DNA of 64,000 nucleotides from Sipunculus nudus (Eukaryota; Annelida; Sipuncula; Golfingiida; Sipunculidae): NCBI GenBank assembly GCA_026874595.1, contig CM049313.1, positions 80,530,659-80,594,658 on the forward strand, read 5' to 3'. Shown here in pieces: positions 1,031 through 64,000 of this stretch (position 1 is the first letter of the stretch; every line of letters begins with the position of its first letter). A program made the translations under genes and the position numbers. Below the pieces are notes generated by a model that saw nothing but the letters and a program-made list of their open reading frames with translations, was not told the origin of the DNA and did no database searches.

Positions 1031-1049
1031 GCCACCAGGGGGCGTGGTA
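1031..1049 (+). promoter_or_regulatory. CTCF-like box in A1 (also A2-A4, A')
   Basis: GCCACCAGGGGGCGTGGTA resembles the CTCF core (CCACYAGRGGGCGC-like). Equivalent boxes start at 6902, 12763, 18620 and 47890, all in the same orientation. Occupancy is not shown by sequence. Confidence 0.6.
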
Positions 1050-1180
1050 CTGGAAACACTGCAACTTACCATTTTTCTGCAATACCAAAAAAAAATATTA
1101 AACGTGGCACAATGTTTACTGTCTTATCTGAAACTAGGATCGTCGGCTTATTCCTGCGTACATGTAGCTTTTGCGCTGCT

Positions 1181-1194
1181 GTTACCATGGTAAC
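1181..1194 (+). promoter_or_regulatory. X-box-like palindrome (RFX type)
   Basis: GTTACCATGGTAAC is a perfect 14-bp palindrome fitting the RFX X-box pattern GTTNCCATGGNAAC. Same in A2 (7051), A3 (12912), A4 (18769) and near 48040 in A'. A second, imperfect one, GTTACCATCGTAAC, lies at 733-746. B and C carry the related GTTACCATGGTTAC. Confidence 0.55.
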
Positions 1195-1888
1195 CAAATT
1201 TTGGGGTAAAACTTGGCAATCTGAAAATAATAACTTTTTTTGCTTCTATCTCTGTTAATATTTATACTACAAGTGTCTAGTTTTCTGCATGAGGTAGCAT
1301 TTCCCTTGCCACTAATGCAGTTAATTGCAAGTCTCGTAGAATCTCGCTCTGTTTTCCGTCAAACGAGAAATTACGAGATTTCACAGAAATGCATATAACT
1401 TGGTCACCTTTTCGGCTAAAGAGGAGTAGTTTTCAGCATTTTGTTGCGTTTTGGGAGCTTAACAAGATAATAACTTATATCTCGCCACATCTCGTACCAT
1501 CTCCCGCCAAACGAGAATATTCGAGAATTCGAACAAATGTCTATATCTCTGTCATTTGAATGCCAGAGATTTTATTTTTTCTATTGTTCAAGATTCACTT
1601 GACTAGTTTGAAGTGACAAAATTGAATATCTCGTCATATCTCGCATCATTTCTTGTCAAACGAGAACATGGGACCATTCAAAGATACGCCTATAATTCTG
1701 TTATTTTAATGCTGAAGACCTTTAGTTTTCAGCATTCGATAGCGTCTAACACTCTCGGTCACATTAATATGTTTATATTGTAAGTTTCGTCAAATCTGGG
1801 ATCGTTTTTTTCTTCAAATAAAAAAGTACATCCTATTGCCGTGACCATAAGTGGCGGCAGTATGTGATAGTAAATGTCGGCAGGAGCA

Positions 1889-2086
1889 TTACACTTGACA
1901 GTTGGAGCCGTGTTCTATGGGTGTGCGATGGCCCATGAAGAAGACTTCTATTGTGTTGTTATCGTCTTCCTTTGATTGCTGCTTCGTAAGCTTCACAGAC
2001 CAGCGCCAACCACCTGGTTGCCATGTGTCCTCAATGTAAACAACCTTTGCTGTTTTCCTTTCCCTAAGATATGTATGGTAGCCTGT
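1889..2086 (-). pseudogene. Possible exon relic, 65 codons, in A1
   Basis: Minus-strand segment open from stop to stop, without a start codon near its 5' end. It reads as ordinary protein, with a W-Q-P-G-G-W-R-W stretch at about residues 22-29, a basic/acidic middle (KLTKQQSKEDD) and a hydrophobic EVFFMGH. The preceding bases on this strand end in AACAG, acceptor-like. I do not recognise the family. A2 and A3 each carry a one-base GG-to-G loss that breaks the frame, which could be decay or sequencing error. It may simply be chance. Confidence 0.3.
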
Positions 2087-2200
2087 TCACTTGTCCTTAG
2101 ATTGTTTATTGTTGGTGTATTGAAGTAAAATAAAATGCCAGGTTTTCCTGCAAATTGATTGTAAATTGAATAAAATCATACAAGAACCAACCAATGTTCT

Positions 2201-4050
2201 ATGACCACTATTTCAGATTTGAGATCAGAACAATTGATTTCTGCATAAACCACTATGACCAGATTTGATAAACTTTAAAGTGGTCTATATTTTTTTCTGA
2301 AGAAGTTGAGCTATATGCTTGGAGATGCCAGCCAGTGGGTGTGAATGGATTGCAATGAAACCCAAGCCAGGTGTTTGTGAAGAGTCTGGTGGAGATGAAG
2401 GGGGCCAAAACCTATTTGACTGTGTATAAGCATAAACTGGCCTGAAATCAGGTTTCTGGGGGCTTGAAATTCTTGTTTGTGTCAACAGGGTAATATTATC
2501 TTGTTTCCCCTGTATATACACCTTGAATTGGGCCTAATGACACCTAAACCATGTTTTAGGGACCATCATTACAGATTTGAGGGAAAAAAAAAATGGATTT
2601 TCCCTGTATATCACTATGTTCACTGTGTCCAGATTTGGAAATTCAAACTGGCCCTAATTTTTTTTTCTGAGGGAGTTGAGCCAAATGCTTGGTGATGCCA
2701 GCCAGTGGGTGTAAATGGATTGCAATGATACCCAAACCAGGAGTGTGTGTTGAGTTTTGTGGATATGAAGGGGGCCAGAACCTATCTGACTGTGTATAAG
2801 CATAAACTGGCCTGAAATCAGGTTTCTGGGGGCATGAAATTTTTGTTTGTGGGAACAGGGTAATATTATCTTGTTTCCCTGTATATACACCCTAAACTGG
2901 GTCTAATGACACCAAAACCAGGTTTGTGGGACCATCAGTACAGATTTGAGGGGGGAAAATGGATTTTCTCTGTATATCACTATGTTCACTGTGTCCAGAT
3001 TTGGAACAAACTGGCCCTAATTTTTTTCTGAGGGAGTTGAGCCAAATGCTTGGTGATGCCAGCCAGTGGGTGTAAATGGATTGCAATGATACCCAAACCA
3101 GGAGTGTGTGTTGAGTTTTGTGGGGATGAGGGGGGCCAGAACCTATTTGACTGTGTATAAGCATAAACTGGCCTGAAATCAGGTTTCTGGGGGCATGAAA
3201 TTTTTGTTTGTGGGAACAGGGTAATATTATCTTGTTTCCCTGTATATACACACTAAACTGGGCCTAATGACACCAAAACCAGGTTTGTGGGACCATCAGT
3301 ACAGATTTGAGGGGAAAAAATGATTTTTTCTGTATATCACTATGTCCACTGTGTCCAGATTTGGAAATTCAAACTGGCCCTAATTTTTTTCTGAGGGAGT
3401 TGAGCCAAATGCTTGGTGATGCCAGCCAGTGGGTGTAAATGGATTGCAATGATACCCAAACCAGGAGTGTGTGTTGAGTTTTGTGGGGATGAGGGGGGCC
3501 AGAACCTATTTGACTGTGTATAAGCATAAACTGGCCTGAAATCAGGTTTCTGGGGGCATGAAATTTTTGTTTGTGGGAACAGGGTAATATTATCTTGTTT
3601 CCCTGTATATACACACTAAACTGGGCCTAATGACACCAAAACCAGGTTTGTGGGACCATCAGTACAGATTTGAGGGGAAAAAATGGATTTTTTCTGTATA
3701 TCACTATGTCCACTGTGTCCAGATTTGGAAATTCAAACTGGCCCTAATTTTTTTTCTGAGAGATTTGAACCAAATGCTTTGAGATTCCAGCCAGTGGGTG
3801 TAAATGGATTGCAATGATAGCCAAACCAGGTGTGTGTGATGAGTCTGGTGGAGATGAGGTGGTCCAAAACACTATTTGCCTGTGTATAATAAGCCATATA
3901 CTGTACTCAGCTGAAATCAGCTTTCTGGGGGCTTGAAATGTTTGCTGGTGGGAACAAGGTAAAATTATCTTGTTATCATGGATATACACCCTAAAATGGG
4001 TCTAAGAACACCAAATACATGCATGTTGGACCATGAGTACAGATTTGAGG
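2201..4050 (+). repeat. ~364-bp sub-array in A1, five units, rearranged
   Basis: Units are marked by GCCAGTGGGT at 2331, 2701, 3062, 3425 and 3790 (spacings 370, 361, 363, 365), preceded by a degenerate half unit. Diagnostic bases show that the first unit begins as u1 and ends as u2, and that u4 is present twice, followed by u5. The count stays at five by one loss and one gain. Confidence 0.93.
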
Positions 4051-4226
4051 TAACAAATTGTCTGTCTATAAATTAAAAAAAATAAAATATCAAACTGTTA
4101 TAAACATGTATCAATATATTTAATAAAATCTCTTTTCATCCAATGAATTGCATCTTATTTTTTTATAAATAAACCATGATATTCAATTACATCCAGTAAT
4201 AAAAAATAAAAATAAAATGAATAAAA

Positions 4227-4276
4227 GTTTTTTTGTTTTTGTTTTTTTTTGGGGGGGGGGGGGGGTTTGTGTTTTT
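4227..4276 (+). repeat. Poly(T)/poly(G) tract in A1
   Basis: T-runs followed by 15 consecutive G (4251-4265), then another T-run and GCAG. Other copies have 18 G (10115-10132), 19 G (15974-15992) and 11 G (51077-51087). The length varies by slippage or sequencing error. The G-run can form a G-quadruplex in principle. The T-run plus GCAG resembles a splice acceptor, but no gene supports one. Confidence 0.9.
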
Positions 4277-4652
4277 TTTTGCAGTTAAATCCAGGCTTCT
4301 CTTTGGATCCCGGCGGTGGGCGAGTGTACAATGGACACCACACAACATTTGAAAGAACATTTTTTCTGCTGTTATTGGATGACCAAGTCTCTATGAATTT
4401 AAAAAAAAATATTTATTCCGTTATTCAAGATGACAGTGAAAATGACCCTATTTTTTCAATCATTCACCACTCTTTTCGAGCGTTCATCGAATAAGAAAGA
4501 GCCCGTCCCACCGCATTTCCTGCGAGGGTTCGTTTCTTCAGAGTCCAAACAATCCTACAGGGGCGGGGTTTAGTCCATCTCGTCTTAAATTTGTGTCCGG
4601 GGCACGGCAAACATTATGAAAGCGGACAAAAACTTTCATACGGCTGGTAAAT

Positions 4653-4681
4653 GCGTTTATATGTAAACGCGGGGAATTCCC
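4653..4681 (+). promoter_or_regulatory. Hairpin plus GGGAATTCCC palindrome in the A unit
   Basis: GCGTTTA-TATG-TAAACGC followed one base later by GGGAATTCCC, which fits the NF-kB (kappa-B) consensus. Present in every A copy read in this part. Function unknown; the match could be coincidental. Confidence 0.4.
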
Positions 4682-5194
4682 GGACAATTCACGGAGAGAT
4701 TTTATATGCAATGATACTTTTAATTACACGTTAAAATCATTTAAAATCTACCACTATATTACTCTAAAGACATTTATTCACTGTTAAATTACCGAAATAA
4801 TAACCAGCGCAAACAATGTGGGACTGCCACTAACACCAATCTGGATCACCAGCTAACATTGACTACCGATCTTACATCAGACGAAAACGCTAAACACTAT
4901 ATATTTTTTCAACAGTTTACTGTGCAAACCGTAACAAAACCATGCAGGATATCAAATTTACAGGTTCTTAAGGGAATATGATACAAAACATAAATTGTAC
5001 CTTTGCTCACATTTAATAATATCATCATGATGAATTCTCCCCGAATTCTCCAGCTGTCCGCGTTATAGATGTATATGTATTTATTAATGACAAAAATTGA
5101 CATACAATTTTATGGATACCCGTATAATTGCGGTTTTCTGGACCGTCCCAGCCCACAGGTAGGATAATATGGATTCCCGACAATATTCTAATGA

Positions 5195-5215
5195 CCGTTC
5201 CCTGAGCTGGAACGG
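5195..5215 (+). repeat. Inverted repeat CCGTTCC/GGAACGG
   Basis: Perfect 7-bp stem with a 7-nt loop in the unassigned part of A1; conserved in the other A copies. Confidence 0.7.
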
Positions 5216-6089
5216 GCTAAGAAGGTCCCTGTCATTTTTTTTAATTGTCAATTCCCAGGTTTTTCGGATAAAAAAATGGCCCAATCCTTCATTCAATCTC
5301 CAGCCTCTTCTGGCGTTCCGGGTTTAAAAAAGAGCCCGTCCCATGCCTATTTCAGCTAGGACTGCAAACTCTGGGGTCAAAACAACTCAACTACGGCTTG
5401 GGATTACTACCTTTCCTCTTAAATTTCCATCGCGCCCGTGTCAAGTGTACCGTTTTATTCACAAACGTGCGGCAGGCGCCAAAAAATTTGACAGCACCCC
5501 TCTCTCATCCCAGAATATATTTTTATATATGAAGTCCTAACCCACCACGGAACTAGGGCCTCAAATTTTTTTATCTTATTACTTACCACTTCAGACTCCT
5601 TAAAAGTCTCTCCTTTTTTAACCAAAGATTCCAATTTTTAAAATATATTAAATTTCACATTACAGATAACCTACACCAAGGGGACATTACAGTTAATCCG
5701 TGATGGGCAGGACTTCTTGGAATTTTATAATTCCCGGACGCAGGCTGACCGACTGCCTTTTTTCTTCAAGGACAGCCCTAATTTAAGCCATCATCAGACT
5801 TGAAGATGTCCTCAGGCCGACCTATTTGTCCAGGAATGAAAGGTCACGTCTCCCTTACCCAGCAGGTCGGGTCTCTGTCTAACACGAACGCGGCTTCGCT
5901 TGCATTTCGGCATTCTGGACGTTCAACTCTTCAAGTTTCATTTTCAGTGCTTTTCTTATTTCCAGCACTCAAGAATAGGAGAACTGCCAAGGATTCAGTT
6001 GGACTTCCTTTATTTTTATTTCTGTCCAAAAATGGATTATCCTGTGTAGGATGGCTACTAATAACAACACTATTAATGTCTCTCTATCC

Positions 6090-6121
<32 letters not shown>

Positions 6122-6292
6122 GTCTACTCCTCTTTGACTTTTGAAAATCAGCAAGACCTTATTCATATGTGCTACTGTTTTCCCCATGATAGAGGTTTTT
6201 CATTTGATCAGATCCAAATGTTCCCTGTCTGTCTGCCTAGTAACTGTCCATCTATTTCGCTGTCTTATTTCCGGTCACTTCCGGCAAGCGTT

Positions 6293-6310
6293 CGACCTCA
6301 GGTCGTCTAG
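6293..6310 (+). repeat. A-type terminal hairpin plus CTAG
   Basis: Same CGACC-TCA-GGTCG stem and CTAG at the end of A1. Confidence 0.75.
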
Positions 6311-8066
6311 TTTGTCTGTCTGTCTGTCTGTCTGTTTATTTGTCTGTATGTACACGCTCTACAGGCCACAGTTTTTAAGCAATCGCTCTGAAACTTATGC
6401 ATTAGGTGTAAGATTGGTTCTCCTCGGAGCCTATTGTTTTTGGTCATGATCGGTCAAAGGTCAAGGTCAAGGTCACCAAAAAAACTAACATTTTTACTTT
6501 CTTCATATCTTTGTCAATAATAATCGTAGCCGCATAATCTGTAGCTCATTTTATTCCTCTTAATGTTAGCTTTCCAAGTGCTAGCAAATTTTTCTGGTCG
6601 ATTGTTACCATCGTAACGTATTTTTGGGGGGAAAATCAGAAAATTCGAAAATTTCACTCAAAATTTTTCATTTTTTAAGTTAGAGAGGTCTAGTTTTTTG
6701 CATTGTGTAGCATTTAATATGCTCTATGGAAAATTAACGGGAGTCTCGCAAAATCTCGTGCCATTTGTCGTCAAATGAGACTTTTCGAGATTTCATTAAA
6801 AACGATTTAGAGTTGGCAGTTTTACAGCTAATGTTCTAAAAGTGACATATTTTCTGTTTTTCTGTATTATCTCGAACTTGTTTTTTCATTTTTTGAAATT
6901 AGCCACCAGGGGGCGTGGTACTGGAAACACTGCAACTTACCATTTTTCTGCAATACCAAAAAAAAATATTAAACGTGGCACAATGTTTACTGTCTTATCT
7001 GAAACTAGGATCGTCGGCTTATTCCTGCGTACATGTAGCTTTGCGCTGCTGTTACCATGGTAACCAAATTTTGGGGTAAAACTTGGCAATCTGAAAATAA
7101 TAACTTTTTTGCTTCTATCTCTGTTAATATTTATACTACAAGTGTCTAGTTTTCTGCATGAGGTAGCATTCCCTTGCCACTAATGCAGTTAATTGCAAGT
7201 CATCGTAGAATCTCGCTCTGTTTTCCGTCAAACGAGAAATTACGAGATTTCACAGAAATGCATATAACTTGGTCACCTTTTCGGCTAAAGAGGAGTAGTT
7301 TTCAGCATTTTGTTGCGTTTTGGGAGCTTAACAAGATAATAACTTATATCTCGCCACATCTCGTACCATCTCCCGCCAAACGAGAATATTCGAGAATTCG
7401 AACAAATGTCTATATCTCTGTCATTTGAATGCCAGAGATTTTATTTTTCTATTGTTCAAGATTCACTTGACTAGTTTGAAGTGACAAAATTGAATATCTC
7501 GTCATATCTCGCATCATTTCTTGTCAAACGAGAACATGGGACCATTCAAAGATACGCCTATAATTCTGTTATTTTAATGCTGAAGACCTTTAGTTTTCAG
7601 CATTCGATAGCGTCTAACACTCTCGGTCACATTAATATGTTTATATTGTAAGTTTCGTCAAATCTGGGATCGTTTTTTCTTCAAATAAAAAAGTACATCC
7701 TATTGCCGTGACCATAAGTGGCGGCAGTATGTGATAGTAAATGTCGGCAGGAGCATTACACTTGACAGTTGGAGCCGTGTTCTATGGGTGTGCGATGCCC
7801 ATGAAGAAGACTTCTATTGTGTTGTTATCGTCTTCCTTTGATTGCTGCTTCGTAAGCTTCACAGACCAGCGCCAACCACCTGGTTGCCATGTGTCCTCAA
7901 TGTAAACAACCTTTGCTGTTTTCCTTTCCCTAAGATATGTATGGTAGCCTGTTCACTTGTCCTTAGATTGTTTATTGTTGGTGTATTGAAGTAAAATAAA
8001 ATGCCAGGTTTTCCTGCAAATTGATTGTAAATTGAATAAAATCTTACAAGAACCAACCAATGTTCT

Positions 8067-9914
8067 ATGACCACTATTTCAGATTTGAGAACAGAACAAT
8101 TGATTTCTGCATAAACCACTATGACCAGATTTGATAAACTTTAAAGTGGTCTATAATTTTTTTCTGAAGAAGTTGAGCTATATGCTTGGAGATGCCAGCC
8201 AGTGGGTGTGAATGGATTGCAATGAAACCCAAGCCAGGTGTTTGTGAAGAGTCTGGTGGAGATGAAGGGGGCCAAAACCTATTTGACTGTGTATAAGCAT
8301 AAACTGGCCTGAAATCAGGTTTCTGGGGGCATGAAATTTTTGTTTGTGGGAACAGGGTAATATTTTCTTGTTTCCCTGTATATACACCCTAAACTGGGCC
8401 TAATGACACCAAAACCAGGTTTGTGGGACCATCAGTACAGATTTGAGGGGGGAAAATGGATTTTATCTGTATATCACTATGTTCACTGTGTCCAGATTTG
8501 GAAATTCAAACTGGTCCTAATTTTTTTCTGATGGAGTTGAGCCAAATGCTTTGAGATACCAGCCAGTGGGTGTAAATGGATTGCAATGATACCAAACCAG
8601 GTGTGTGTGTTGAGTTTTGTGGAGATGAGGGGGGCCAGAACCTATCTGACTGTGTATAAGCATAAACTGGCCTGAAATCAGGTTTCTGGGGGCTTGAAAT
8701 TCTTGTTTGTGTCAACAGGGTAATATTATCTTGTTTCCCTGTATATACACCTTGAATTGGGCCTAATGACACCTAAACCATGTTTTAGGGACCATCATTA
8801 CAGATTTGAGGGAAAAAAAAATGGATTTTCCCTGTATATCACTATGTTCACTGTGGTCCAGATTTGGAAATTCAAACTGGCCCTAATTTTTTTTCTGAGG
8901 GAGTTGAGCCAAATGCTTGGTGATGCCAGCCAGTGGGTGTAAATGGATTGCAATGATACCCAAACCAGGAGTGTGTGTTGAGTTTGTGGATATGAAGGGG
9001 GCCAGAACCTATTTGACTGTGTATAAGCATAAACTGGCCTGAAATCAGGTTTCTGGGGGCATGAAATTTTTGTTTGTGGGAACAGGGTAATATTATCTTG
9101 TTTCCCTGTATATACACCCTAAACTGGGTCTAATGACACCAAAACCAGGTTTGTGGGACCATCAGTACAGATTTGAGGGGGAAAATGGATTTTCTCTGTA
9201 TATCACTATGTTCACTGTGTCCAGATTTGGAAATTCAAACTGGCCCTAATTTTTTTCTGAGGGAGTTGAGCCAAATGCTTTGGTGATGCCAGCCAGTGGG
9301 TGTAAATGGATTGCAATGATACCCAAACCAGGAGTGTGTGTTGAGTTTTGTGGGGATGAGGGGGGCCAGAACCTATTTGACTGTGTATAAGCATAAACTG
9401 GCCTGAAATCAGGTTTCTGGGGGCATGAATTTTTGTTTGTGGGAACAGGGTAATATTATCTTGTTTCCCTGTATATACACACTAAACTGGGCCTAATGAC
9501 ACCAAAACCAGGTTGTGGGACCATCAGTACAGATTTGAGGGGAAAAAATTGGATTTTTTCTGTATATCACTATGTCCACTGTGTCCAGATTTGGAAATTC
9601 AAACTGGCCCTAATTTTTTTTCTGAGAGATTTGAACCAAATGCTTTGAGATTCCAGCCAGTGGGTGTAATGGATTGCAATGATAGCCAAACCAGGTGTGT
9701 GTGATGAGTCTGGTGGAGATGAGGTGGTCCAAAACACTATTTGCCTGTGTATAATAAGCCATATACTGTACTCAGCTGAAATCAGCTTTCTGGGGGCTTG
9801 AAATGTTTGCTGGTGGGAACAAGGTAAAATTATCTTGTTATCATGGATATACACCCTAAAATGGTCTAAGAACACCAAATACATGCATGTTGGACCATGA
9901 GTACAGATTTGAGG
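8067..9914 (+). repeat. ~364-bp sub-array in A2, five units
   Basis: GCCAGTGGGT markers at 8198, 8562, 8929, 9292 and 9656. The order u1-u2-u3-u4-u5 is recognisable from diagnostic bases: GGGGGCATG versus GGGGGCTTG, GGATATGAAGG versus GGGGATGAGG, and TTCCAGCC in u5. Confidence 0.94.
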
Positions 9915-11951
9915 TAACAAATTGTCTGTCTATAAATTAAAAAAAATAAAATATCAAACTGTTATAAACATGTATCAATATATTTAATAAAATCTCTTTT
10001 CATCCAATGAATTGCATCTTATTTTTTATAAATAAACCATGATATTCAATTACATCCAGTAATAAAAAATAAAAATAAAATGAATAAAAGTTTTTTTTGT
10101 TTTTGTTTTTTTTTGGGGGGGGGGGGGGGGGGTTTGTGTTTTTTTTGCAGTTAAATCCAGCTTCTCTTTGGATCCCGGCGGTGGGCGAGTGTACAATGGA
10201 CACCACACAACATTTGAAAGAACATTTTTTCTGCTGTTATTGGATGACCAAGTCTCTATGAATTTAAAAAAAAATATTTATTCCGTTATTCAAGATGACA
10301 GTGAAAATGACCCTATTTTTTCAATCATTCACCACTCTTTTCGAGCGTTCATCGAATAAGAAAGAGCCCGTCCCACCGCATTTCCTGCGAGGGTTCGTTT
10401 CTTCAGAGTCCAAACAATCCTACAGGGGCGGGGTTTAGTCCATCTCGTCTTAAATTTGTGTCCGGGGCACGGCAAACATTATGAAAGCGGACAAAAACTT
10501 TCATACGGCTGGTAAATGCGTTTATATGTAAACGCGGGGAATTCCCGGACAATTCACGGAGAGATTTTATATGCAATGATACTTTTAATTACACGTTAAA
10601 ATCATTTAAAATCTACCACTATATTACTCTAAAGACATTTATTCACTGTTAAATTACCGAAATAATAACCAGCGCAAACAATGTGGGACTGCCACTAACA
10701 CCAATCTGGATCACCAGCTAACATTGACTACCGATCTTACATCAGACGAAAACGCTAAACACTATATATTTTTTCAACAGTTTACTGTGCAAACCGTAAC
10801 AAAACCATGCAGGATATCAAATTTACAGGTTCTTAAGGGAATATGATACAAAACATAAATTGTACCTTTGCTCACATTTAATAATATCATCATGATGAAT
10901 TCTCCCCGAATTCTCCAGCTGTCCGCGTTATAGATGTATATGTATTTATTAATGACAAAAATTGACATACAATTTTATGGATACCCGTATAATTGCGGTT
11001 TTCTGGACCGTCCCAGCCCACAGGTAGGATAATATGGATTCCCGACAATATTCTAATGACCGTTCCCTGAGCTGGAACGGGCTAAGAAGGTCCCTGTCAT
11101 TTTTTTTAATTGTCAATTCCCAGGTTTTCGGATAAAAAAATGGCCCAATCCTTCATTCAATCTCCAGCCTCTTCTGGCGTTCCGGGTTTAAAAAAGAGCC
11201 CGTCCCATGCCTATTTCAGCTAGGACTGCAAACTCTGGGGTCAAAACAACTCAACTACGGCTTGGGATTACTACCTTTCCTCTTAAATTTCCATCGCGCC
11301 CGTGTCAAGTGTACCGTTTTATTCACAAACGTGCGGCAGGCGCCAAAAAATTTGACAGCACCCCTCTCTCATCCCAGAATATATTTTTATATATGAAGTC
11401 CTAACCCACCACGGAACTAGGGCCTCAAATTTTTTTATCTTATTACTTACCACTTCAGACTCCTTAAAAGTCTCTCCTTTTTTAACCAAAGATTCCAATT
11501 TTTAAAATATATTAAATTTCACATTACAGATAACCTACACCAAGGGGACATTACAGTTAATCCGTGATGGGCAGGACTTCTTGGAATTTTTATAATTCCC
11601 GGACGCAGGCTGACCGACTGCCTTTTTTCTTCAAGGACAGCCCTAATTTAAGCCATCATCAGACTTGAAGATGTCCTCAGGCCGACCTATTTGTCCAGAA
11701 TGAAAGGTCACGTCTCCCTTACCCAGAGGTCGGGTCTCTGTCTAACACGAACGCGGCTTCGCTTGCATTTCGGCATTCTGGACGTTCAACTCTTCAAGTT
11801 TCATTTCAGTGCTTTTCTTATTTCCAGCACTCAAGAATAGGAGAACTGCCAAGGATTCAGTTGGACTTCCTTTATTTTTATTTCTGTCCAAAAATGGATT
11901 ATCCTGTGTAGGATGGCTACTAATAACAACACTATTAATGTCTCTCTATCC

Positions 11952-11983
<32 letters not shown>

Positions 11984-12155
11984 GTCTACTCCTCTTTGAC
12001 TTTTGAAAATCAGCAAGACCTTATTCATATGTGCTACTGTTTTCCCCATGATAGAGGTTTTTCATTTGATCAGATCCAAATGTTCCCTGTCTGTCTGCCT
12101 AGTAACTGTCCATCTATTTCGCTGTCTTAATTTCCGGTCACTTCCGGCAAGCGTT

Positions 12156-12173
12156 CGACCTCAGGTCGTCTAG
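12156..12173 (+). repeat. A-type terminal hairpin plus CTAG
   Basis: Same element at the end of A2. Confidence 0.75.
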
Positions 12174-17809: not shown

Positions 17810-17841
<32 letters not shown>

Positions 17842-18012
17842 GTCTACTCCTCTTTGACTTTTGAAAATCAGCAAGACCTTATTCATATGTGCTACTGTTT
17901 TCCCCATGATAGAGGTTTTTCATTTGATCAGATCCAAATGTTCCCTGTCTGTCTGCCTAGTAACTGTCCATCTATTTCGCTGTCTTATTTCCGGTCACTT
18001 CCGGCAAGCGTT

Positions 18013-18030
18013 CGACCTCAGGTCGTCTAG
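18013..18030 (+). repeat. A-type terminal hairpin plus CTAG
   Basis: Same element at the end of A3. Confidence 0.75.
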
Positions 18031-47186: not shown

Positions 47187-47200
47187 TGTTTGTCTGTTTG

Positions 47201-47299
47201 TTGCTTGCCGGAATCAGAGATTTCGACAAGTATGTTGATCAGTTCCGTTTGTTGCTTGCCGGAAATCTTCGATTTTCGCAAGCATGTTGATCACCCGCG
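47201..47299 (+). repeat. Two different hairpin modules in tandem
   Basis: First the family C type (TTGCTTGCCGGAATCAGAG..., 47201-47247), then the B/E type (TTGCTTGCCGGAAATC..., 47252-47299). The C-type module is otherwise the first ~50 bp of each C unit, but no C body follows here. Confidence 0.88.
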
Positions 47300-48741: not shown

Positions 48742-48939
48742 TTACACTTGACAGTTGGAGCCATGTTCTATGGGTGTGCGATGGCCCATGAAGAAGACTT
48801 CTATTGTGTTGTTATCGTCTTCCTTTGATTGCTGCTTCGTAAGCTTCACAGACCAGCGCCAACCCCCTGGTTGCCATGTGTCCTCAATGTAAACAACCTT
48901 TGCTGTTTTCCTTTCCCTAAGATATGTATGGTAGCCTGT
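48742..48939 (-). pseudogene. Same possible exon relic in A'
   Basis: The A' copy is also open for 65 codons and the same length. I see two substitutions against A1 (GGT/GGG and CAC/CAT) and both are synonymous in this frame. Two changes are too few to prove constraint. Confidence 0.3.
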
Positions 48940-49053
48940 TTACTTGTCCTTAGATTGTTTATTGTTGGTGTATTGAAGTAAAATAAAATGCCAGGTTTTC
49001 CTGCATAATGATTGTAAATTGAATAAAATCATACCAGAACCAACCAATGTTCT

Positions 49054-50884: not shown

Positions 50885-52927
50885 TAACAAATTGTCTGTC
50901 TATAAATTAAAAAAAATCAAATATCAAACTGTTATAAACATGTATCAATATATTTAATAAAATCTCTTTTCATCCAATGAATTGCATCTTATTTTTTTAA
51001 TAAATAAACCATGATATTCAACTACATCCAGTAATAAAAAATAAAAATAAAATGAATAAAAGTTTTTTTTTTTTTTGGGGGGGGGGGTGGTTGTGTTTTT
51101 TTGCAGTAAAATCCAGGCTTCTCTTTGGATCCCGGCGGTGGGCGAGGGTACAATGGACACCACACAACATTTGAAAGAACATTTTTTTCTGCTGTTATTG
51201 GATGACCAAGTCTCTATGAATTTTAAAAAAAAATATTTATTCCGTTATTCAAGATGACAGTGAAAATGACCCTATTTTTTCAATCATTCACCACTCTTTT
51301 CGAGCGTTCATCGAATAAGAAAGAGCCCGTCCCACCGCATTTCCTGCGAGGGTTCGTTTCTTCAGAGTCCAAACAATCCTACCGGGGCGGGGTTTAGTCC
51401 ATCTCGTCTTAAATTTGTGTCCGGGGCACGGCAAACATTATGAAAGCGGACAAAAACTTTCATACGGCTGGTAAATGCGTTTATATGTAAACGCGGGGAA
51501 TTCCCGGAGAATTCACGGAGAGATTTTATATGCAATGATACTTTTAATTACACGTTAAAATCATTTAAAATCTACCACTATATTACTCTAAAGACATTTA
51601 TTCACTGTTAAATTACCGAAATAATAACCAGCGCAAACAATGTGGGACTGCCACGAACACCAATCAGGATCACCAGCTAACATTGACTACCGATCTTACA
51701 TCAGACGAAAACGCTAAACACTATATATTTTTTTCAACAGTTTACTGTGCAAACCGTAACAAAACCATGCAGGATATCAAATTTACAGGTTCTTAAGGAA
51801 ATATGATACAAAACATAAATTGTACCTTTGCTCACATTTAATAATATCATCATGATAAATTCTCCGCGAATTCTCCAGCTGTCCGCGTTATAGATGTATA
51901 TGTATTTATTAATGACAAAAACTGACATACAATTTTATGGATACCCGTATAATTGCGGTTTTCTGGACCGTCCCAGCCCACAGGTAGGATAATATGGATT
52001 CCCGACAATATTCTAATGACCGTTCCCTGAGCTGGAACGGGCTAAGAAGGTCCCTGTCATTTTTTTAATTGTCAATTCCCAGGTTTTTCTGATAAAAAAA
52101 TGGCCCAATCCTTCATTCAATCTCCAGCCTCTTCTGGCGTTCCGGGTTTAAAAAAGAGCCCGTCCCATGCCTATTTCAGCTAGGACTGCGAACTCTGGGG
52201 TCAAAACAACTCAACTACGGCTTGGGATTACCACCTTTCCTCTTAAATATCCATCGCGCCCGTGTCAAGTGTACCGTTATTATTCACAAACGTGCGGCAG
52301 GCGCCAAAAAATTTGACAGCACCCCTTTCGGATGCCAGAATATATTTTTATATATAAAGTCCAAACCCACCACGGAACTAGGGACTCACAATTTTTTATC
52401 TTATTACTTACCATTTCAGACTCCTTAAAAATCACCGCTTTCCTTTTTTAACCAAAGATTCCAATTTTTTAACATATATTAAATTTCACATTACAGATAA
52501 CTTACACCAAGGGGACATTACAGTTAATCCGTGATGGGCAGGACTTCTTGGAATATTATAATTCCCGGACGCAGGCTGACCGGCTAACCTTTTTTCTTCA
52601 AGGAAAGCCCTAATTTAAGCCGAGACCTTAAAGGATGGTCTAGATAGGCACCTAGCTTGTCCAGGAATGAAAGGTCACGTCTCCCTTACCCAGATGTCGG
52701 GTCTCCGTCTAACACGAACGCGGCTTCGCTTGCATTTCGGCATTCTGGACGTTCAACTCTTCAAGTTTCATTTTCATCGCTTTTTCTTATTTCCAGCACT
52801 CAAGAATAGAAGAAGTATTCAGTTGGATTTGTATTATTTTTTATTTCTGTCAAAAAGTGATTGTCCTGTACAGGATAGCTACTAATAATAACACTAATAA
52901 TGTGTCTCCAGCTGTCTGTCTCTCTGC

Positions 52928-53128: not shown

Positions 53129-53146
53129 TGACCTCTGGTCATCTAG
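53129..53146 (+). repeat. Terminal hairpin variant with compensatory change plus CTAG
   Basis: TGACC-TCT-GGTCA then T-CTAG. Relative to the other copies the outer pair changed from C-G to T-A on both arms and the loop also differs. The next bases are TC, so CTAG abuts TC at the junction with B array 2. Confidence 0.78.
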
Positions 53147-56100
53147 TCTGTTTGTTTGTTTGTTTGTTTGTCTGTCCAGTCTCTACAGGTCGCAATTTTG
53201 ATCCCATCGCTTTCAAACTTTCACAGTTTGTGTAAAATCAAAAATGCAAGAAGCCTATTGTTTTTGGGCAATATAGGTCAAAGGTCAAGGTCAAGGTCAT
53301 CAAAAGTTCCTAAAGTGCTCTTTTCTTCATATCTCCATTACTATTTGTCATAGCCACTTCAAACAGGGCTCATTTTAATCGGCATTCCAAGGCCTTTCTT
53401 CTGATATATATGTTGCTGAAATCTGCTGTTTCTATGGTTACACATTTTGGGGGGAAACTCATGATTTTCGAAAATAAAAGGCCTAATTTTTCTAACTTTG
53501 TCATTTTTAAAGCTAGAGAGTTCTAGTTTTTTGCATCAGATAGTACTAAATAAGCTTTTAATTATACAAGTGAAAGTCTCGTAAAATCTCGCACCATTTC
53601 TCGTCAAACGAGAATTTTCGAGATTTCATTAAATATGGCTTACAGGTCGCATTTTTTAAACTATGACTTTGAAAATGACATATTTTGTGTTATTTAGAAA
53701 TATCTCGAAACCAATTTTTCATTTTTTGGAAATAGCCACCAGGGGGCGTGGTACATGAAACACTGTAACATATCATTTTTCTGCAATATCTCAAAAAATA
53801 TTAAACCTGACACCATTTTTTGGGTCGTATCTGAAACTAGGAACATTGGCTTATCCCTTCGCACATGTTGCTTTGTGCTGCCGTTACCATGGTTACCAAA
53901 TTTTGGGGTAAAACTTGACAATCTGAAAATTCGGAGTTTTCCAGCTTCTCTCTCTGTTGATATTTGCGATAGAAAGGTCTGGTGTTTGGCGTTAGACAGC
54001 ATCCCTCTAGTTCTTAGTCATTCAATCGCAAGTCTCGTCATATCTCGCACCGTTTCTCGTGAAACGAGAACACGTGACCATTCAAAGAAATGCCTATAAT
54101 TATGTCATTTTTCACGCTACAGACACATGGTTTGCAGCGCTGGATAGCGGCTGACACTCGCAGTCACATTCAGGGGTCACATTGTTAGTCTCGTCAAATC
54201 TCGCGCCGTTTTTCGCCAAACCACGAAGACACGTGCCGTCGCCGCAAGTGGCGGCAGGGTCCCTACGGTGGGCGGCCGGCGTGTGCAGCGGTGCGTGACG
54301 GCCTCTCCGGGCCCCATCTATGATCATACATGTTGGAGGCACAGTCCAGACTTTATTGCTTGCCGGAAATCTTCGATTTTCGCAAGCTGGTTGGTCAGTC
54401 GCGGATGTCTGTTTGTCTGTTTGTTTGTTTGTTTGTTTGTCTGTCCAGTCTCTACAGGTCGCAATTTTGATCCCATCGCTTTCAAACTTTCACAGTTTGT
54501 GTAAAATCAAAAATGCAAGAAGCCTATTGTTTTTGGGCAATATAGGTCAAAGGTCAAGGTCAAGGTCATCAAAAGTTCCTAAAGTGCTCTTTTCTTCATA
54601 TCTCCATTACTATTTGTCATAGCCACTTCAAACAGGGCTCATTTTAATCGGCATTCCAAGGCCTTTCTTCTGATATATATGTTGCTGAAATCTGCTGTTT
54701 CTATGGTTACACATTTTGGGGGGAAACTCATGATTTTCGAAAATAAAAGGCCTAATTTTTCTAACTTTGTCATTTTTAAAGCTAGAGAGTTCTAGTTTTT
54801 TGCATCAGATAGTACTAAATAAGCTTTTAATTATACAAGTGAAAGTCTCGTAAAATCTCGCACCATTTCTCGTCAAACGAGAATTTTCGAGATTTCATTA
54901 AATATGGCTTACAGGTCGCATTTTTTAAACTATGACTTTGAAAATGACATATTTTGTGTTATTTAGAAATATCTCGAAACCAATTTTTCATTTTTTGGAA
55001 ATAGCCACCAGGGGGCGTGGTACATGAAACACTGTAACATATCATTTTTCTGCAATATCTCAAAAAATATTAAACCTGACACCATTTTTTGGGTCGTATC
55101 TGAAACTAGGAACATTGGCTTATCCCTTCGCACATGTTGCTTTGTGCTGCCGTTACCATGGTTACCAAATTTTGGGGTAAAACTTGACAATCTGAAAATT
55201 CGGAGTTTTCCAGCTTCTCTCTCTGTTGATATTTGCGATAGAAAGGTCTGGTGTTTGGCGTTAGACAGCATCCCTCTAGTTCTTAGTCATTCAATCGCAA
55301 GTCTCGTCATATCTCGCACCGTTTCTCGTGAAACGAGAACACGTGACCATTCAAAGAAATGCCTATAATTATGTCATTTTTCACGCTACAGACACATGGT
55401 TTGCAGCGCTGGATAGCGGCTGACACTCGCAGTCACATTCAGGGGTCACATTGTTAGTCTCGTCAAATCTCGCGCCGTTTTTCGCCAAACCACGAAGACA
55501 CGTGCCGTCGCCGCAAGTGGCGGCAGGGTCCCTACGGTGGGCGGCCGGCGTGTGCAGCGGTGCGTGACGGCCTCTCCGGGCCCCATCTATGATCATACAT
55601 GTTGGAGGCACAGTCCAGACTTTATTGCTTGCCGGAAATCTTCGATTTTCGCAAGCTGGTTGGTCAGTCGCGGATGTCTGTTTGTCTGTTTGTTTGTTTG
55701 TTTGTTTGTCTGTCCAGTCTCTACAGGTCGCAATTTTGATCCCATCGCTTTCAAACTTTCACAGTTTGTGTAAAATCAAAAATGCAAGAAGCCTATTGTT
55801 TTTGGGCAATATAGGTCAAAGGTCAAGGTCAAGGTCATCAAAAGTTCCTAAAGTGCTCTTTTCTTCATATCTCCATTACTATTTGTCATAGCCACTTCAA
55901 ACAGGGCTCATTTTAATCGGCATTCCAAGGCCTTTCTTCTGATATATATGTTGCTGAAATCTGCTGTTTCTATGGTTACACATTTTGGGGGGAAACTCAT
56001 GATTTTCGAAAATAAAAGGCCTAATTTTTCTAACTTTGTCATTTTTAAAGCTAGAGAGTTCTAGTTTTTTGCATCAGATAGTACTAAATAAGCTTTTAAT

Positions 56101-59100
56101 TATACAAGTGAAAGTCTCGTAAAATCTCGCACCATTTCTCGTCAAACGAGAATTTTCGAGATTTCATTAAATATGGCTTACAGGTCGCATTTTTTAAACT
56201 ATGACTTTGAAAATGACATATTTTGTGTTATTTAGAAATATCTCGAAACCAATTTTTCATTTTTTGGAAATAGCCACCAGGGGGCGTGGTACATGAAACA
56301 CTGTAACATATCATTTTTCTGCAATATCTCAAAAAATATTAAACCTGACACCATTTTTTGGGTCGTATCTGAAACTAGGAACATTGGCTTATCCCTTCGC
56401 ACATGTTGCTTTGTGCTGCCGTTACCATGGTTACCAAATTTTGGGGTAAAACTTGACAATCTGAAAATTCGGAGTTTTCCAGCTTCTCTCTCTGTTGATA
56501 TTTGCGATAGAAAGGTCTGGTGTTTGGCGTTAGACAGCATCCCTCTAGTTCTTAGTCATTCAATCGCAAGTCTCGTCATATCTCGCACCGTTTCTCGTGA
56601 AACGAGAACACGTGACCATTCAAAGAAATGCCTATAATTATGTCATTTTTCACGCTACAGACACATGGTTTGCAGCGCTGGATAGCGGCTGACACTCGCA
56701 GTCACATTCAGGGGTCACATTGTTAGTCTCGTCAAATCTCGCGCCGTTTTTCGCCAAACCACGAAGACACGTGCCGTCGCCGCAAGTGGCGGCAGGGTCC
56801 CTACGGTGGGCGGCCGGCGTGTGCAGCGGTGCGTGACGGCCTCTCCGGGCCCCATCTATGATCATACATGTTGGAGGCACAGTCCAGACTTTATTGCTTG
56901 CCGGAAATCTTCGATTTTCGCAAGCTGGTTGGTCAGTCGCGGATGTCTGTTTGTCTGTTTGTTTGTTTGTTTGTTTGTCTGTCCAGTCTCTACAGGTCGC
57001 AATTTTGATCCCATCGCTTTCAAACTTTCACAGTTTGTGTAAAATCAAAAATGCAAGAAGCCTATTGTTTTTGGGCAATATAGGTCAAAGGTCAAGGTCA
57101 AGGTCATCAAAAGTTCCTAAAGTGCTCTTTTCTTCATATCTCCATTACTATTTGTCATAGCCACTTCAAACAGGGCTCATTTTAATCGGCATTCCAAGGC
57201 CTTTCTTCTGATATATATGTTGCTGAAATCTGCTGTTTCTATGGTTACACATTTTGGGGGGAAACTCATGATTTTCGAAAATAAAAGGCCTAATTTTTCT
57301 AACTTTGTCATTTTTAAAGCTAGAGAGTTCTAGTTTTTTGCATCAGATAGTACTAAATAAGCTTTTAATTATACAAGTGAAAGTCTCGTAAAATCTCGCA
57401 CCATTTCTCGTCAAACGAGAATTTTCGAGATTTCATTAAATATGGCTTACAGGTCGCATTTTTTAAACTATGACTTTGAAAATGACATATTTTGTGTTAT
57501 TTAGAAATATCTCGAAACCAATTTTTCATTTTTTGGAAATAGCCACCAGGGGGCGTGGTACATGAAACACTGTAACATATCATTTTTCTGCAATATCTCA
57601 AAAAATATTAAACCTGACACCATTTTTTGGGTCGTATCTGAAACTAGGAACATTGGCTTATCCCTTCGCACATGTTGCTTTGTGCTGCCGTTACCATGGT
57701 TACCAAATTTTGGGGTAAAACTTGACAATCTGAAAATTCGGAGTTTTCCAGCTTCTCTCTCTGTTGATATTTGCGATAGAAAGGTCTGGTGTTTGGCGTT
57801 AGACAGCATCCCTCTAGTTCTTAGTCATTCAATCGCAAGTCTCGTCATATCTCGCACCGTTTCTCGTGAAACGAGAACACGTGACCATTCAAAGAAATGC
57901 CTATAATTATGTCATTTTTCACGCTACAGACACATGGTTTGCAGCGCTGGATAGCGGCTGACACTCGCAGTCACATTCAGGGGTCACATTGTTAGTCTCG
58001 TCAAATCTCGCGCCGTTTTTCGCCAAACCACGAAGACACGTGCCGTCGCCGCAAGTGGCGGCAGGGTCCCTACGGTGGGCGGCCGGCGTGTGCAGCGGTG
58101 CGTGACGGCCTCTCCGGGCCCCATCTATGATCATACATGTTGGAGGCACAGTCCAGACTTTATTGCTTGCCGGAAATCTTCGATTTTCGCAAGCTGGTTG
58201 GTCAGTCGCGGATGTCTGTTTGTCTGTTTGTTTGTTTGTTTGTTTGTCTGTCCAGTCTCTACAGGTCGCAATTTTGATCCCATCGCTTTCAAACTTTCAC
58301 AGTTTGTGTAAAATCAAAAATGCAAGAAGCCTATTGTTTTTGGGCAATATAGGTCAAAGGTCAAGGTCAAGGTCATCAAAAGTTCCTAAAGTGCTCTTTT
58401 CTTCATATCTCCATTACTATTTGTCATAGCCACTTCAAACAGGGCTCATTTTAATCGGCATTCCAAGGCCTTTCTTCTGATATATATGTTGCTGAAATCT
58501 GCTGTTTCTATGGTTACACATTTTGGGGGGAAACTCATGATTTTCGAAAATAAAAGGCCTAATTTTTCTAACTTTGTCATTTTTAAAGCTAGAGAGTTCT
58601 AGTTTTTTGCATCAGATAGTACTAAATAAGCTTTTAATTATACAAGTGAAAGTCTCGTAAAATCTCGCACCATTTCTCGTCAAACGAGAATTTTCGAGAT
58701 TTCATTAAATATGGCTTACAGGTCGCATTTTTTAAACTATGACTTTGAAAATGACATATTTTGTGTTATTTAGAAATATCTCGAAACCAATTTTTCATTT
58801 TTTGGAAATAGCCACCAGGGGGCGTGGTACATGAAACACTGTAACATATCATTTTTCTGCAATATCTCAAAAAATATTAAACCTGACACCATTTTTTGGG
58901 TCGTATCTGAAACTAGGAACATTGGCTTATCCCTTCGCACATGTTGCTTTGTGCTGCCGTTACCATGGTTACCAAATTTTGGGGTAAAACTTGACAATCT
59001 GAAAATTCGGAGTTTTCCAGCTTCTCTCTCTGTTGATATTTGCGATAGAAAGGTCTGGTGTTTGGCGTTAGACAGCATCCCTCTAGTTCTTAGTCATTCA

Positions 59101-62100
59101 ATCGCAAGTCTCGTCATATCTCGCACCGTTTCTCGTGAAACGAGAACACGTGACCATTCAAAGAAATGCCTATAATTATGTCATTTTTCACGCTACAGAC
59201 ACATGGTTTGCAGCGCTGGATAGCGGCTGACACTCGCAGTCACATTCAGGGGTCACATTGTTAGTCTCGTCAAATCTCGCGCCGTTTTTCGCCAAACCAC
59301 GAAGACACGTGCCGTCGCCGCAAGTGGCGGCAGGGTCCCTACGGTGGGCGGCCGGCGTGTGCAGCGGTGCGTGACGGCCTCTCCGGGCCCCATCTATGAT
59401 CATACATGTTGGAGGCACAGTCCAGACTTTATTGCTTGCCGGAAATCTTCGATTTTCGCAAGCTGGTTGGTCAGTCGCGGATGTCTGTTTGTCTGTTTGT
59501 TTGTTTGTTTGTTTGTCTGTCCAGTCTCTACAGGTCGCAATTTTGATCCCATCGCTTTCAAACTTTCACAGTTTGTGTAAAATCAAAAATGCAAGAAGCC
59601 TATTGTTTTTGGGCAATATAGGTCAAAGGTCAAGGTCAAGGTCATCAAAAGTTCCTAAAGTGCTCTTTTCTTCATATCTCCATTACTATTTGTCATAGCC
59701 ACTTCAAACAGGGCTCATTTTAATCGGCATTCCAAGGCCTTTCTTCTGATATATATGTTGCTGAAATCTGCTGTTTCTATGGTTACACATTTTGGGGGGA
59801 AACTCATGATTTTCGAAAATAAAAGGCCTAATTTTTCTAACTTTGTCATTTTTAAAGCTAGAGAGTTCTAGTTTTTTGCATCAGATAGTACTAAATAAGC
59901 TTTTAATTATACAAGTGAAAGTCTCGTAAAATCTCGCACCATTTCTCGTCAAACGAGAATTTTCGAGATTTCATTAAATATGGCTTACAGGTCGCATTTT
60001 TTAAACTATGACTTTGAAAATGACATATTTTGTGTTATTTAGAAATATCTCGAAACCAATTTTTCATTTTTTGGAAATAGCCACCAGGGGGCGTGGTACA
60101 TGAAACACTGTAACATATCATTTTTCTGCAATATCTCAAAAAATATTAAACCTGACACCATTTTTTGGGTCGTATCTGAAACTAGGAACATTGGCTTATC
60201 CCTTCGCACATGTTGCTTTGTGCTGCCGTTACCATGGTTACCAAATTTTGGGGTAAAACTTGACAATCTGAAAATTCGGAGTTTTCCAGCTTCTCTCTCT
60301 GTTGATATTTGCGATAGAAAGGTCTGGTGTTTGGCGTTAGACAGCATCCCTCTAGTTCTTAGTCATTCAATCGCAAGTCTCGTCATATCTCGCACCGTTT
60401 CTCGTGAAACGAGAACACGTGACCATTCAAAGAAATGCCTATAATTATGTCATTTTTCACGCTACAGACACATGGTTTGCAGCGCTGGATAGCGGCTGAC
60501 ACTCGCAGTCACATTCAGGGGTCACATTGTTAGTCTCGTCAAATCTCGCGCCGTTTTTCGCCAAACCACGAAGACACGTGCCGTCGCCGCAAGTGGCGGC
60601 AGGGTCCCTACGGTGGGCGGCCGGCGTGTGCAGCGGTGCGTGACGGCCTCTCCGGGCCCCATCTATGATCATACATGTTGGAGGCACAGTCCAGACTTTA
60701 TTGCTTGCCGGAAATCTTCGATTTTCGCAAGCTGGTTGGTCAGTCGCGGATGTCTGTTTGTCTGTTTGTTTGTTTGTTTGTTTGTCTGTCCAGTCTCTAC
60801 AGGTCGCAATTTTGATCCCATCGCTTTCAAACTTTCACAGTTTGTGTAAAATCAAAAATGCAAGAAGCCTATTGTTTTTGGGCAATATAGGTCAAAGGTC
60901 AAGGTCAAGGTCATCAAAAGTTCCTAAAGTGCTCTTTTCTTCATATCTCCATTACTATTTGTCATAGCCACTTCAAACAGGGCTCATTTTAATCGGCATT
61001 CCAAGGCCTTTCTTCTGATATATATGTTGCTGAAATCTGCTGTTTCTATGGTTACACATTTTGGGGGGAAACTCATGATTTTCGAAAATAAAAGGCCTAA
61101 TTTTTCTAACTTTGTCATTTTTAAAGCTAGAGAGTTCTAGTTTTTTGCATCAGATAGTACTAAATAAGCTTTTAATTATACAAGTGAAAGTCTCGTAAAA
61201 TCTCGCACCATTTCTCGTCAAACGAGAATTTTCGAGATTTCATTAAATATGGCTTACAGGTCGCATTTTTTAAACTATGACTTTGAAAATGACATATTTT
61301 GTGTTATTTAGAAATATCTCGAAACCAATTTTTCATTTTTTGGAAATAGCCACCAGGGGGCGTGGTACATGAAACACTGTAACATATCATTTTTCTGCAA
61401 TATCTCAAAAAATATTAAACCTGACACCATTTTTTGGGTCGTATCTGAAACTAGGAACATTGGCTTATCCCTTCGCACATGTTGCTTTGTGCTGCCGTTA
61501 CCATGGTTACCAAATTTTGGGGTAAAACTTGACAATCTGAAAATTCGGAGTTTTCCAGCTTCTCTCTCTGTTGATATTTGCGATAGAAAGGTCTGGTGTT
61601 TGGCGTTAGACAGCATCCCTCTAGTTCTTAGTCATTCAATCGCAAGTCTCGTCATATCTCGCACCGTTTCTCGTGAAACGAGAACACGTGACCATTCAAA
61701 GAAATGCCTATAATTATGTCATTTTTCACGCTACAGACACATGGTTTGCAGCGCTGGATAGCGGCTGACACTCGCAGTCACATTCAGGGGTCACATTGTT
61801 AGTCTCGTCAAATCTCGCGCCGTTTTTCGCCAAACCACGAAGACACGTGCCGTCGCCGCAAGTGGCGGCAGGGTCCCTACGGTGGGCGGCCGGCGTGTGC
61901 AGCGGTGCGTGACGGCCTCTCCGGGCCCCATCTATGATCATACATGTTGGAGGCACAGTCCAGACTTTATTGCTTGCCGGAAATCTTCGATTTTCGCAAG
62001 CTGGTTGGTCAGTCGCGGATGTCTGTTTGTCTGTTTGTTTGTTTGTTTGTTTGTCTGTCCAGTCTCTACAGGTCGCAATTTTGATCCCATCGCTTTCAAA

Positions 62101-64000
62101 CTTTCACAGTTTGTGTAAAATCAAAAATGCAAGAAGCCTATTGTTTTTGGGCAATATAGGTCAAAGGTCAAGGTCAAGGTCATCAAAAGTTCCTAAAGTG
62201 CTCTTTTCTTCATATCTCCATTACTATTTGTCATAGCCACTTCAAACAGGGCTCATTTTAATCGGCATTCCAAGGCCTTTCTTCTGATATATATGTTGCT
62301 GAAATCTGCTGTTTCTATGGTTACACATTTTGGGGGGAAACTCATGATTTTCGAAAATAAAAGGCCTAATTTTTCTAACTTTGTCATTTTTAAAGCTAGA
62401 GAGTTCTAGTTTTTTGCATCAGATAGTACTAAATAAGCTTTTAATTATACAAGTGAAAGTCTCGTAAAATCTCGCACCATTTCTCGTCAAACGAGAATTT
62501 TCGAGATTTCATTAAATATGGCTTACAGGTCGCATTTTTTAAACTATGACTTTGAAAATGACATATTTTGTGTTATTTAGAAATATCTCGAAACCAATTT
62601 TTCATTTTTTGGAAATAGCCACCAGGGGGCGTGGTACATGAAACACTGTAACATATCATTTTTCTGCAATATCTCAAAAAATATTAAACCTGACACCATT
62701 TTTTGGGTCGTATCTGAAACTAGGAACATTGGCTTATCCCTTCGCACATGTTGCTTTGTGCTGCCGTTACCATGGTTACCAAATTTTGGGGTAAAACTTG
62801 ACAATCTGAAAATTCGGAGTTTTCCAGCTTCTCTCTCTGTTGATATTTGCGATAGAAAGGTCTGGTGTTTGGCGTTAGACAGCATCCCTCTAGTTCTTAG
62901 TCATTCAATCGCAAGTCTCGTCATATCTCGCACCGTTTCTCGTGAAACGAGAACACGTGACCATTCAAAGAAATGCCTATAATTATGTCATTTTTCACGC
63001 TACAGACACATGGTTTGCAGCGCTGGATAGCGGCTGACACTCGCAGTCACATTCAGGGGTCACATTGTTAGTCTCGTCAAATCTCGCGCCGTTTTTCGCC
63101 AAACCACGAAGACACGTGCCGTCGCCGCAAGTGGCGGCAGGGTCCCTACGGTGGGCGGCCGGCGTGTGCAGCGGTGCGTGACGGCCTCTCCGGGCCCCAT
63201 CTATGATCATACATGTTGGAGGCACAGTCCAGACTTTATTGCTTGCCGGAAATCTTCGATTTTCGCAAGCTGGTTGGTCAGTCGCGGATGTCTGTTTGTC
63301 TGTTTGTTTGTTTGTTTGTTTGTCTGTCCAGTCTCTACAGGTCGCAATTTTGATCCCATCGCTTTCAAACTTTCACAGTTTGTGTAAAATCAAAAATGCA
63401 AGAAGCCTATTGTTTTTGGGCAATATAGGTCAAAGGTCAAGGTCAAGGTCATCAAAAGTTCCTAAAGTGCTCTTTTCTTCATATCTCCATTACTATTTGT
63501 CATAGCCACTTCAAACAGGGCTCATTTTAATCGGCATTCCAAGGCCTTTCTTCTGATATATATGTTGCTGAAATCTGCTGTTTCTATGGTTACACATTTT
63601 GGGGGGAAACTCATGATTTTCGAAAATAAAAGGCCTAATTTTTCTAACTTTGTCATTTTTAAAGCTAGAGAGTTCTAGTTTTTTGCATCAGATAGTACTA
63701 AATAAGCTTTTAATTATACAAGTGAAAGTCTCGTAAAATCTCGCACCATTTCTCGTCAAACGAGAATTTTCGAGATTTCATTAAATATGGCTTACAGGTC
63801 GCATTTTTTAAACTATGACTTTGAAAATGACATATTTTGTGTTATTTAGAAATATCTCGAAACCAATTTTTCATTTTTTGGAAATAGCCACCAGGGGGCG
63901 TGGTACATGAAACACTGTAACATATCATTTTTCTGCAATATCTCAAAAAATATTAAACCTGACACCATTTTTTGGGTCGTATCTGAAACTAGGAACATTG
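53147..64000 (+). repeat. Family B array 2: 1269-bp units (8 full + 1 partial)
   Basis: Unit starts are 53147, 54410, 55679, 56948, 58217, 59486, 60755, 62024 and 63293; the last is cut by the window end and the first is a few bases short in its tetranucleotide tract. All units share four differences from units 1-4 of array 1: one T fewer before GGAAATAG, AAACCTGACACC instead of AAACGTGACACC, GAGAGTTCTAG instead of GAGTGTTCTAG, and CACGCTACAG instead of CACACTACAG. Within the array they look identical. Confidence 0.97.

Follow-up and report, generated by a model that had tools for sequence, protein, structure and literature searches.

Introduction

Does a repeat field that carries many copies of a CTCF-like sequence represent a bank of CTCF sites, or is the likeness incidental to the repeat? 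The question is raised by a 64,000-nucleotide stretch of contig CM049313.1 (positions 80,530,659 to 80,594,658 of the forward strand; hereafter the window), which, as seen by self-BLAST, is filled by head-to-tail repeat arrays (A, C, D, B, diverged A and second B), and in which a preliminary description had noted about 48 boxes resembling the CTCF motif. The explanation that we favour, and to which we give somewhat better than even chances, is a macrosatellite field whose modules are related members of a single family and hold a CTCF-class box in their conserved core, a box that head-to-tail amplification carried to 48 places.

Number, strand and score of the CTCF-like boxes

Both strands were scored with a 19-column CTCF matrix of the JASPAR type. 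Across the whole window, 48 plus-strand sites reached at least 16 bits and 46 of them at least 20, the outermost lying at 1029-1047 and 63885-63903, whereas the minus strand held no site of at least 14 bits, one of at least 12 and two of at least 10. The count of about 48 given in the preliminary description was thus exact at this threshold, and its statement that the G-rich strand is always on the plus strand held. By family, the boxes comprise five in A units, 12 (C1) and 11 (C2) in C units, which do carry two boxes as had been claimed, four in D modules, seven in the first B array and nine in the second. As exact strings, CCACCAGGGGGCG occurs 21 times, CC[AG]C[CT]AGGGGGCG 45 times and CCGCTAGGGGGCGCTGCA 12 times on the plus strand; none of the three occurs on the minus strand of the window. 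A scan of both strands with the CTCF consensus CCASYAGRKGGCRS, taken from a published paper and allowed up to two mismatches, gave 48 matches, consisting of 47 of the 48 boxes (the D4 box was missed) and one minus-strand match at 17023-17036; by chance, a mean of 5.06 was obtained (standard deviation 2.21, largest 12, 100 shuffles).

Only seven distinct 19-base box sequences were found, in 21, 12, 11, 1, 1, 1 and 1 copies. Once copies are collapsed, the support comes from about eight related sites and not from 48. In the collapsed set, made up of one A unit, one B unit, one C unit and the D region (11,292 bases), eight sites reached at least 16 bits; 1500 dinucleotide shuffles averaged 0.047 such sites, with a largest value of 2. 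None of these shuffles attained the best score, 25.2 bits, and 0.2% attained 21.1 bits. The likeness of the box to the CTCF motif is well above chance, and the proposed fit of the core to the CTCF consensus survived the comparison with shuffled sequence.

Origin of the copy number and common orientation

Box starts followed one another at 1269-1270 bases in the regular units of B, at 456 and 817-818 bases in C units and at 5857-5871 bases in A units. The boxes share one direction because the units that carry them repeat head to tail, and none of the 2063 rows of the self-BLAST of the window (E 1e-10) was a minus-strand match. Since seven box sequences cover all 48 sites and many units are letter-identical, the sites do not stand for 48 separate events: an independent origin of each was ruled out on these grounds, and selection for direction is unneeded given the absence of minus-strand self-matches. 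Co-orientation is consequently no evidence of function or of selection for direction. CTCF-type sites were likely spread here through repeat amplification, as judged from the sequence. The letter-identical sets (10 C units, four B units in the first array and eight in the second) may stem from a very recent round of amplification, from strong homogenisation or from an effect of the assembly.

Variation and conservation of the box

In a substitution test, the consensus of the seven box types was mutated by the number of differences seen in each type, under five mutation models, CpG-biased ones among them, with 5000 simulations each. The box types total 149.8 bits, against 105-117 for the null, and exceed 99.4-100% of the simulations (null fractions 0.0000, 0.0014, 0.0042, 0.0024 and 0.0062); these fractions are optimistic because the box types are related. 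Taken singly under the transition-weighted model, the A/B (0.017) and D2 (0.022) types carry the signal; D1 is identical to the consensus. Variation is lower in columns of high information (Spearman -0.44, permutation 0.028, seven related types). Substitutions in the box thus fall at positions tolerated by the CTCF matrix, with D4 as the exception.

The modules are related, with cross-group identity of 41-57% among A/B, C and D in a core alignment built from 10 of the 48 boxes, each with 200 bases on either side. No other 19-column block of this alignment equals the box (0.86); the block beginning TATCTCGAA and a downstream block come just below it (0.83 each). The preliminary description had stated that the old D modules keep the box while losing most other landmarks. 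The first part stood, although of the four D boxes two are eroded, at scores of 17.9 and 16.8 bits; the second was only partly right, as the D modules also retain TATCTC, GGCCATATCTCC and TGTCTG blocks. As a sole conserved landmark, the box was ruled out for whole units by blocks of equal or higher conservation.

Weighing of the explanations

We infer that the box is a site which the host CTCF can bind, and that the module retained it while other sequence diverged. The mechanism would begin with a family of related modules, each with one CTCF-class recognition box in its core; repeated head-to-tail amplification would then have brought the box to 48 places, with number, spacing and orientation inherited from the array. 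The module family is possibly transposon-derived. The earlier interpretation of the boxes as CTCF sites is upheld as far as the consensus match, the single strand and the persistence across modules 41-57% alike are concerned, but is weakened by a co-orientation that stems from tandem copying, by conservation that is not confined to the box, and by the presence of RFX-like and AGGTCA-type sites. We regard the CTCF-type identity of the boxes, as read from their letters, as moderately supported.

Several points weigh against this identity. A single motif was scored, picked because the preliminary description had drawn attention to it, and the chance figures carry no correction for this choice. 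The substitution test uses the consensus in place of an ancestor and counts related boxes as independent; C1 (0.21), C2 (0.19) and D3 (0.13) are not significant singly, and D4 (0.638) does not exceed random expectation. When whole A, B and C units are aligned, the block containing the box scores 0.84, two blocks score higher (0.95 and 0.89), three listed blocks tie with it, and 2.6% of all alignment windows equal or beat it. RFX-like and AGGTCA-type sites share the A, B and C units with the box, and CTCF is therefore not singled out. Methylation can block CTCF; the ratio of observed to expected CpG is 0.56 in A, 0.53 in D and 0.32 in an insert within the D modules, against 0.93-0.98 in young arrays, and the depletion of the older parts would fit methylation, although age alone may suffice.

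The alternative that survives best, which we hold to be possible but rather doubtful, is that the box forms part of the cis machinery of the repeat itself or is a site of another zinc-finger or nuclear factor, its CTCF likeness being incidental and its retention due to the descent of amplified copies from working elements. Blocks conserved as well as or better than the box (AGCCTATTGTTTTTGG, GTCAAGGTCAAGGTCA and ATTTTGGGGTAAAAC in whole units, and TATCTCGAA) would fit such machinery, as would 36 X-box-like GTTACCATGG sites in A, B and C units (for example at 1181, 40254 and 22065), eight of them perfect GTTACCATGGTAAC palindromes, 33 tandem AGGTCA-type stretches in the same families (for example at 580, 40916 and 21913), all on the plus strand, and diverged inverted arms around the D4 box (37939-37961 and 38006-38028). 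We take the GTTACCATGG sites to be putative RFX-like sites and the AGGTCA stretches to be putative nuclear-receptor-like ones. The strong likeness over the full 19 bases, flanks included (25.2 bits for D1), and variation that follows the tolerance of CTCF speak against an incidental resemblance.

A selected, working one-sided boundary, loop anchor or CTCF sink, by analogy with DXZ4, would account for 48 strong co-oriented sites within 63 kb and has precedents in Dxz4 (PMC5899087) and the IgH VH domain (PMC6746451), but we think it unlikely, as tandem copying alone accounts for orientation and number and the window holds no sign of selection on copy number or position. That a chance GC-rich stretch which binds no protein hitch-hiked with the amplification is very improbable: all copies may descend from one ancestral box, and with hundreds of motifs one chance match at the 21.1 bits reached by a few shuffles of the collapsed set would not be absurd, yet no shuffle attained the score of D1, and the variation pattern and the retention of the box in modules of such low identity argue otherwise.

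Layout of the window and other features

The coordinates of arrays, units and boxes are collected in Table 1. The box of the B-type piece that follows the assembly gap, if any, would fall inside the gap.

Table 1. Arrays, repeat units, boxes and other features located in the window
Feature	Position	Strand	Remarks
A array	1-19363	+	98.3-99.6% between units (self-BLAST)
A units, three of 5.86 kb	1-5872, 5873-11735, 11736-17592	+	one box each
Fourth A unit, partial, 1.77 kb	17593-19363	+	cut by 500-N gap
A-array boxes, 19 bases each	starts 1029, 6900, 12761, 18618	+	21.1 bits each
500-N assembly gap	19364-19863		between A-type and B/C-type arrays
B-type unit piece after gap	19864-20695	+	89.3% to B unit positions 73-865
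C array	20466-35347	+	465-base partial, 1273-base unit, ten 1274-base units, 404-base partial
C unit, 1273 bases	20931-22203	+	
Ten letter-identical C units, 1274 bases	22204-34943	+	
C1 boxes, n = 12	starts 20929 ... 34942	+	21.9 bits
C2 boxes, n = 11	starts 21385 ... 34124	+	22.3 bits
D modules, diverged tandem, ~331 bases	35566-38081	+	direct repeats spaced 331, 60-73% alike
D1 box TGGCCGCTAGGGGGCGCTG	35608-35626	+	25.2 bits, highest score in window
D2 box TGTCCACTAGAGGGCGCTG	35938-35956	+	24.5 bits; 0 mismatches to CCASYAGRKGGCRS
Unrelated insert, ~1.2 kb, splitting D modules	36206-37443 (ends approximate)		observed/expected CpG 0.32
D3 box, eroded	37507-37525	+	17.9 bits
D4 box, most eroded	37957-37975	+	16.8 bits; fails consensus at up to two mismatches
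First B array	38249-47202	+	self-BLAST, matrix scan, unit comparison
First B array, 589-base lead-in, then 96.6% unit	unit 38838-40106	+	
First B array, four letter-identical 1270-base units	40107-45186	+	
First B array, altered unit	45187-46513	+	
First B array, partial unit	46514-47202	+	
First B array boxes	starts 38835, 40104, 41374, 42644, 43914, 45184, 46511	+	
Diverged A-type copy	47299-52702	+	95.1% to A unit positions 438-5872
Box in diverged A-type copy	47888-47906	+	21.1 bits
Second B array	53146-64000	+	590-base lead-in, eight 1269-base units, first 113 bases of next
Eight letter-identical B units, 1269 bases	53736-63887	+	
Second B array boxes	starts 53733, 55002, 56271, 57540, 58809, 60078, 61347, 62616, 63885	+	

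The A unit holds a 363-base tandem sub-repeat of 4.9 copies at 2250-4050 and in its homologues, and AGGTCAAAGGTCA is present 16 times in the window. The insert starts with a hairpin, AGCCCAGC...GCTGGGCT, and within it a diverged AGGTCAAAGGTCAAGGTCAC-like phrase occurs four times, at intervals of 135-145 bases. The insert and the AGGTCA phrase may resemble repeats of mollusc genomes; papers matched by short strings were on other subjects by title and abstract, and strings from the window alone matched none. A further hairpin, TGCTTGCC...GCAAGC, stands at 54357-54387, directly before the TGTC/TGTT microsatellite, with homologues in B and C units.

No tRNA or tmRNA was found in the window, and no Rfam match at the gathering score. 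A protein-coding element was looked for in eight of the 145 listed stop-to-stop frames, and no Pfam family was found at E 0.1; many of the other 137 duplicate these or cross the N gap.

Pattern searches for relatives returned two stretches in viral_contigs for GCCRCYAGGGGGCGYTGCA (L001 and L002), both GC-rich and prokaryote- or phage-like with the resemblance confined to the box, as judged from 2000 bases of the first and 901 of the second, and three stretches for AATATCTCGAAAN{5,12}TTCATTTT. When L001-L005 were aligned to the window, the longest matches spanned 21, 19, 30, 33 and 48 bases, with best E values of 0.002-0.032, and these were taken as chance. A unit-specific pattern had no match in genome_contigs or viral_contigs, and a B unit none among phages (distant mode). 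No CTCF-bearing invertebrate satellite was described in the open-access papers that the literature searches listed, as judged from titles and abstract beginnings and in part from best matches only.

Comparison with known systems

By analogy, the closest precedent is DXZ4, a system absent from the preliminary description. As described for DXZ4/Dxz4 of the mammalian X (PMC5899087, PMC3491370), tandem units carry a CTCF motif in each repeat and in tandem orientation, and tandem units each with a one-direction CTCF motif are likewise found in the window. The direction in which Dxz4 makes contacts is reported to match that of its bank of CTCF sites (PMC5899087). DXZ4 differs in being CTCF-bound and acting on the inactive X, whereas the boxes of the window are known from their letters; in its primate units of about 3 kb; and, in human DXZ4, in two sets of opposite orientation. 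The window, in turn, mixes several unit families, and the restriction of conservation to the CTCF motif that marks DXZ4 was not seen in the whole-unit alignment, the box not being the sole conserved block.

The IgH VH domain also has a large bank of co-oriented CTCF sites, with 111 of 144 predicted mouse sites reported as occupied and a human consensus, ACCACCAGGGGGCG, that contains the core of the A/B box (PMC6746451); unlike those of the window, its sites accompany V gene segments rather than a satellite, and their occupancy has been shown. Rodent SINE B2 and other transposon-derived CTCF sites (PMC7520972, PMC6979391) resemble the window in that a repeat family spreads the motif, but are described as dispersed, bound single insertions, whereas the window has tandem arrays of predicted sites.

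The non-autonomous Helentrons of Crassostrea gigas (Cg_HINE; PMC7492417) are described as single elements that unite a GTCY-type microsatellite, a palindromic hairpin and satellite-like repeats. In the window, TGTC/TGTT tracts represent the microsatellite. A hairpin appears in the centroid fold of 55590-55720 (z -0.37), but an equally good fold is reached by 71 of 200 shuffles, and for the subterminal inverted repeats that define HINEs (11-12 bases, one 5' and one 3') no fitting pair was present among 25 of 28 pairs for one B unit; the repeats were not assigned to HINEs. The term CTCF has no occurrence in the main text of the HINE paper (PMC7492417).

Possible role of the array

Binding of the boxes by host CTCF is plausible, by analogy, provided that the host belongs to the bilaterians that have CTCF. 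Orthologues are reported in molluscs and annelids, with none found in flatworms (PMC10658182), and a CTCF-like motif is reported as enriched at squid topologically associating domain (TAD) boundaries (PMC9023564). If bound, the co-oriented bank would behave like its mammalian counterparts, halting cohesin that comes from one side and producing a one-sided contact stripe; alternatively, it would just hold CTCF. Under the CTCF motif orientation rule, reportedly due to Rao et al. 2014, and with CCACNAGGGGGC on the plus strand, the stripe is predicted to point toward higher coordinates of the window. A boundary or sink function of the array is possible by comparison with such systems. The boldest form, in which a serially amplified module with CTCF, RFX-like and nuclear-receptor-like sites would act as an invertebrate DXZ4-like bank of dozens of co-oriented CTCF sites and as a one-sided cohesin stall and stripe anchor outside vertebrates, we consider quite unlikely.

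Directional loop extrusion by CTCF outside vertebrates is an open question: direct evidence for invertebrate TAD formation was described as lacking as of 2023 (PMC10658181), and for squid the direction of CTCF motifs is reported as not resolvable (PMC10658182). If CTCF is bound here and directional, a stripe would be expected on one side of the array and none on the other, so that 48 sites of common orientation would provide a natural test. The array would, moreover, illustrate the multiplication of regulatory sites by satellites.

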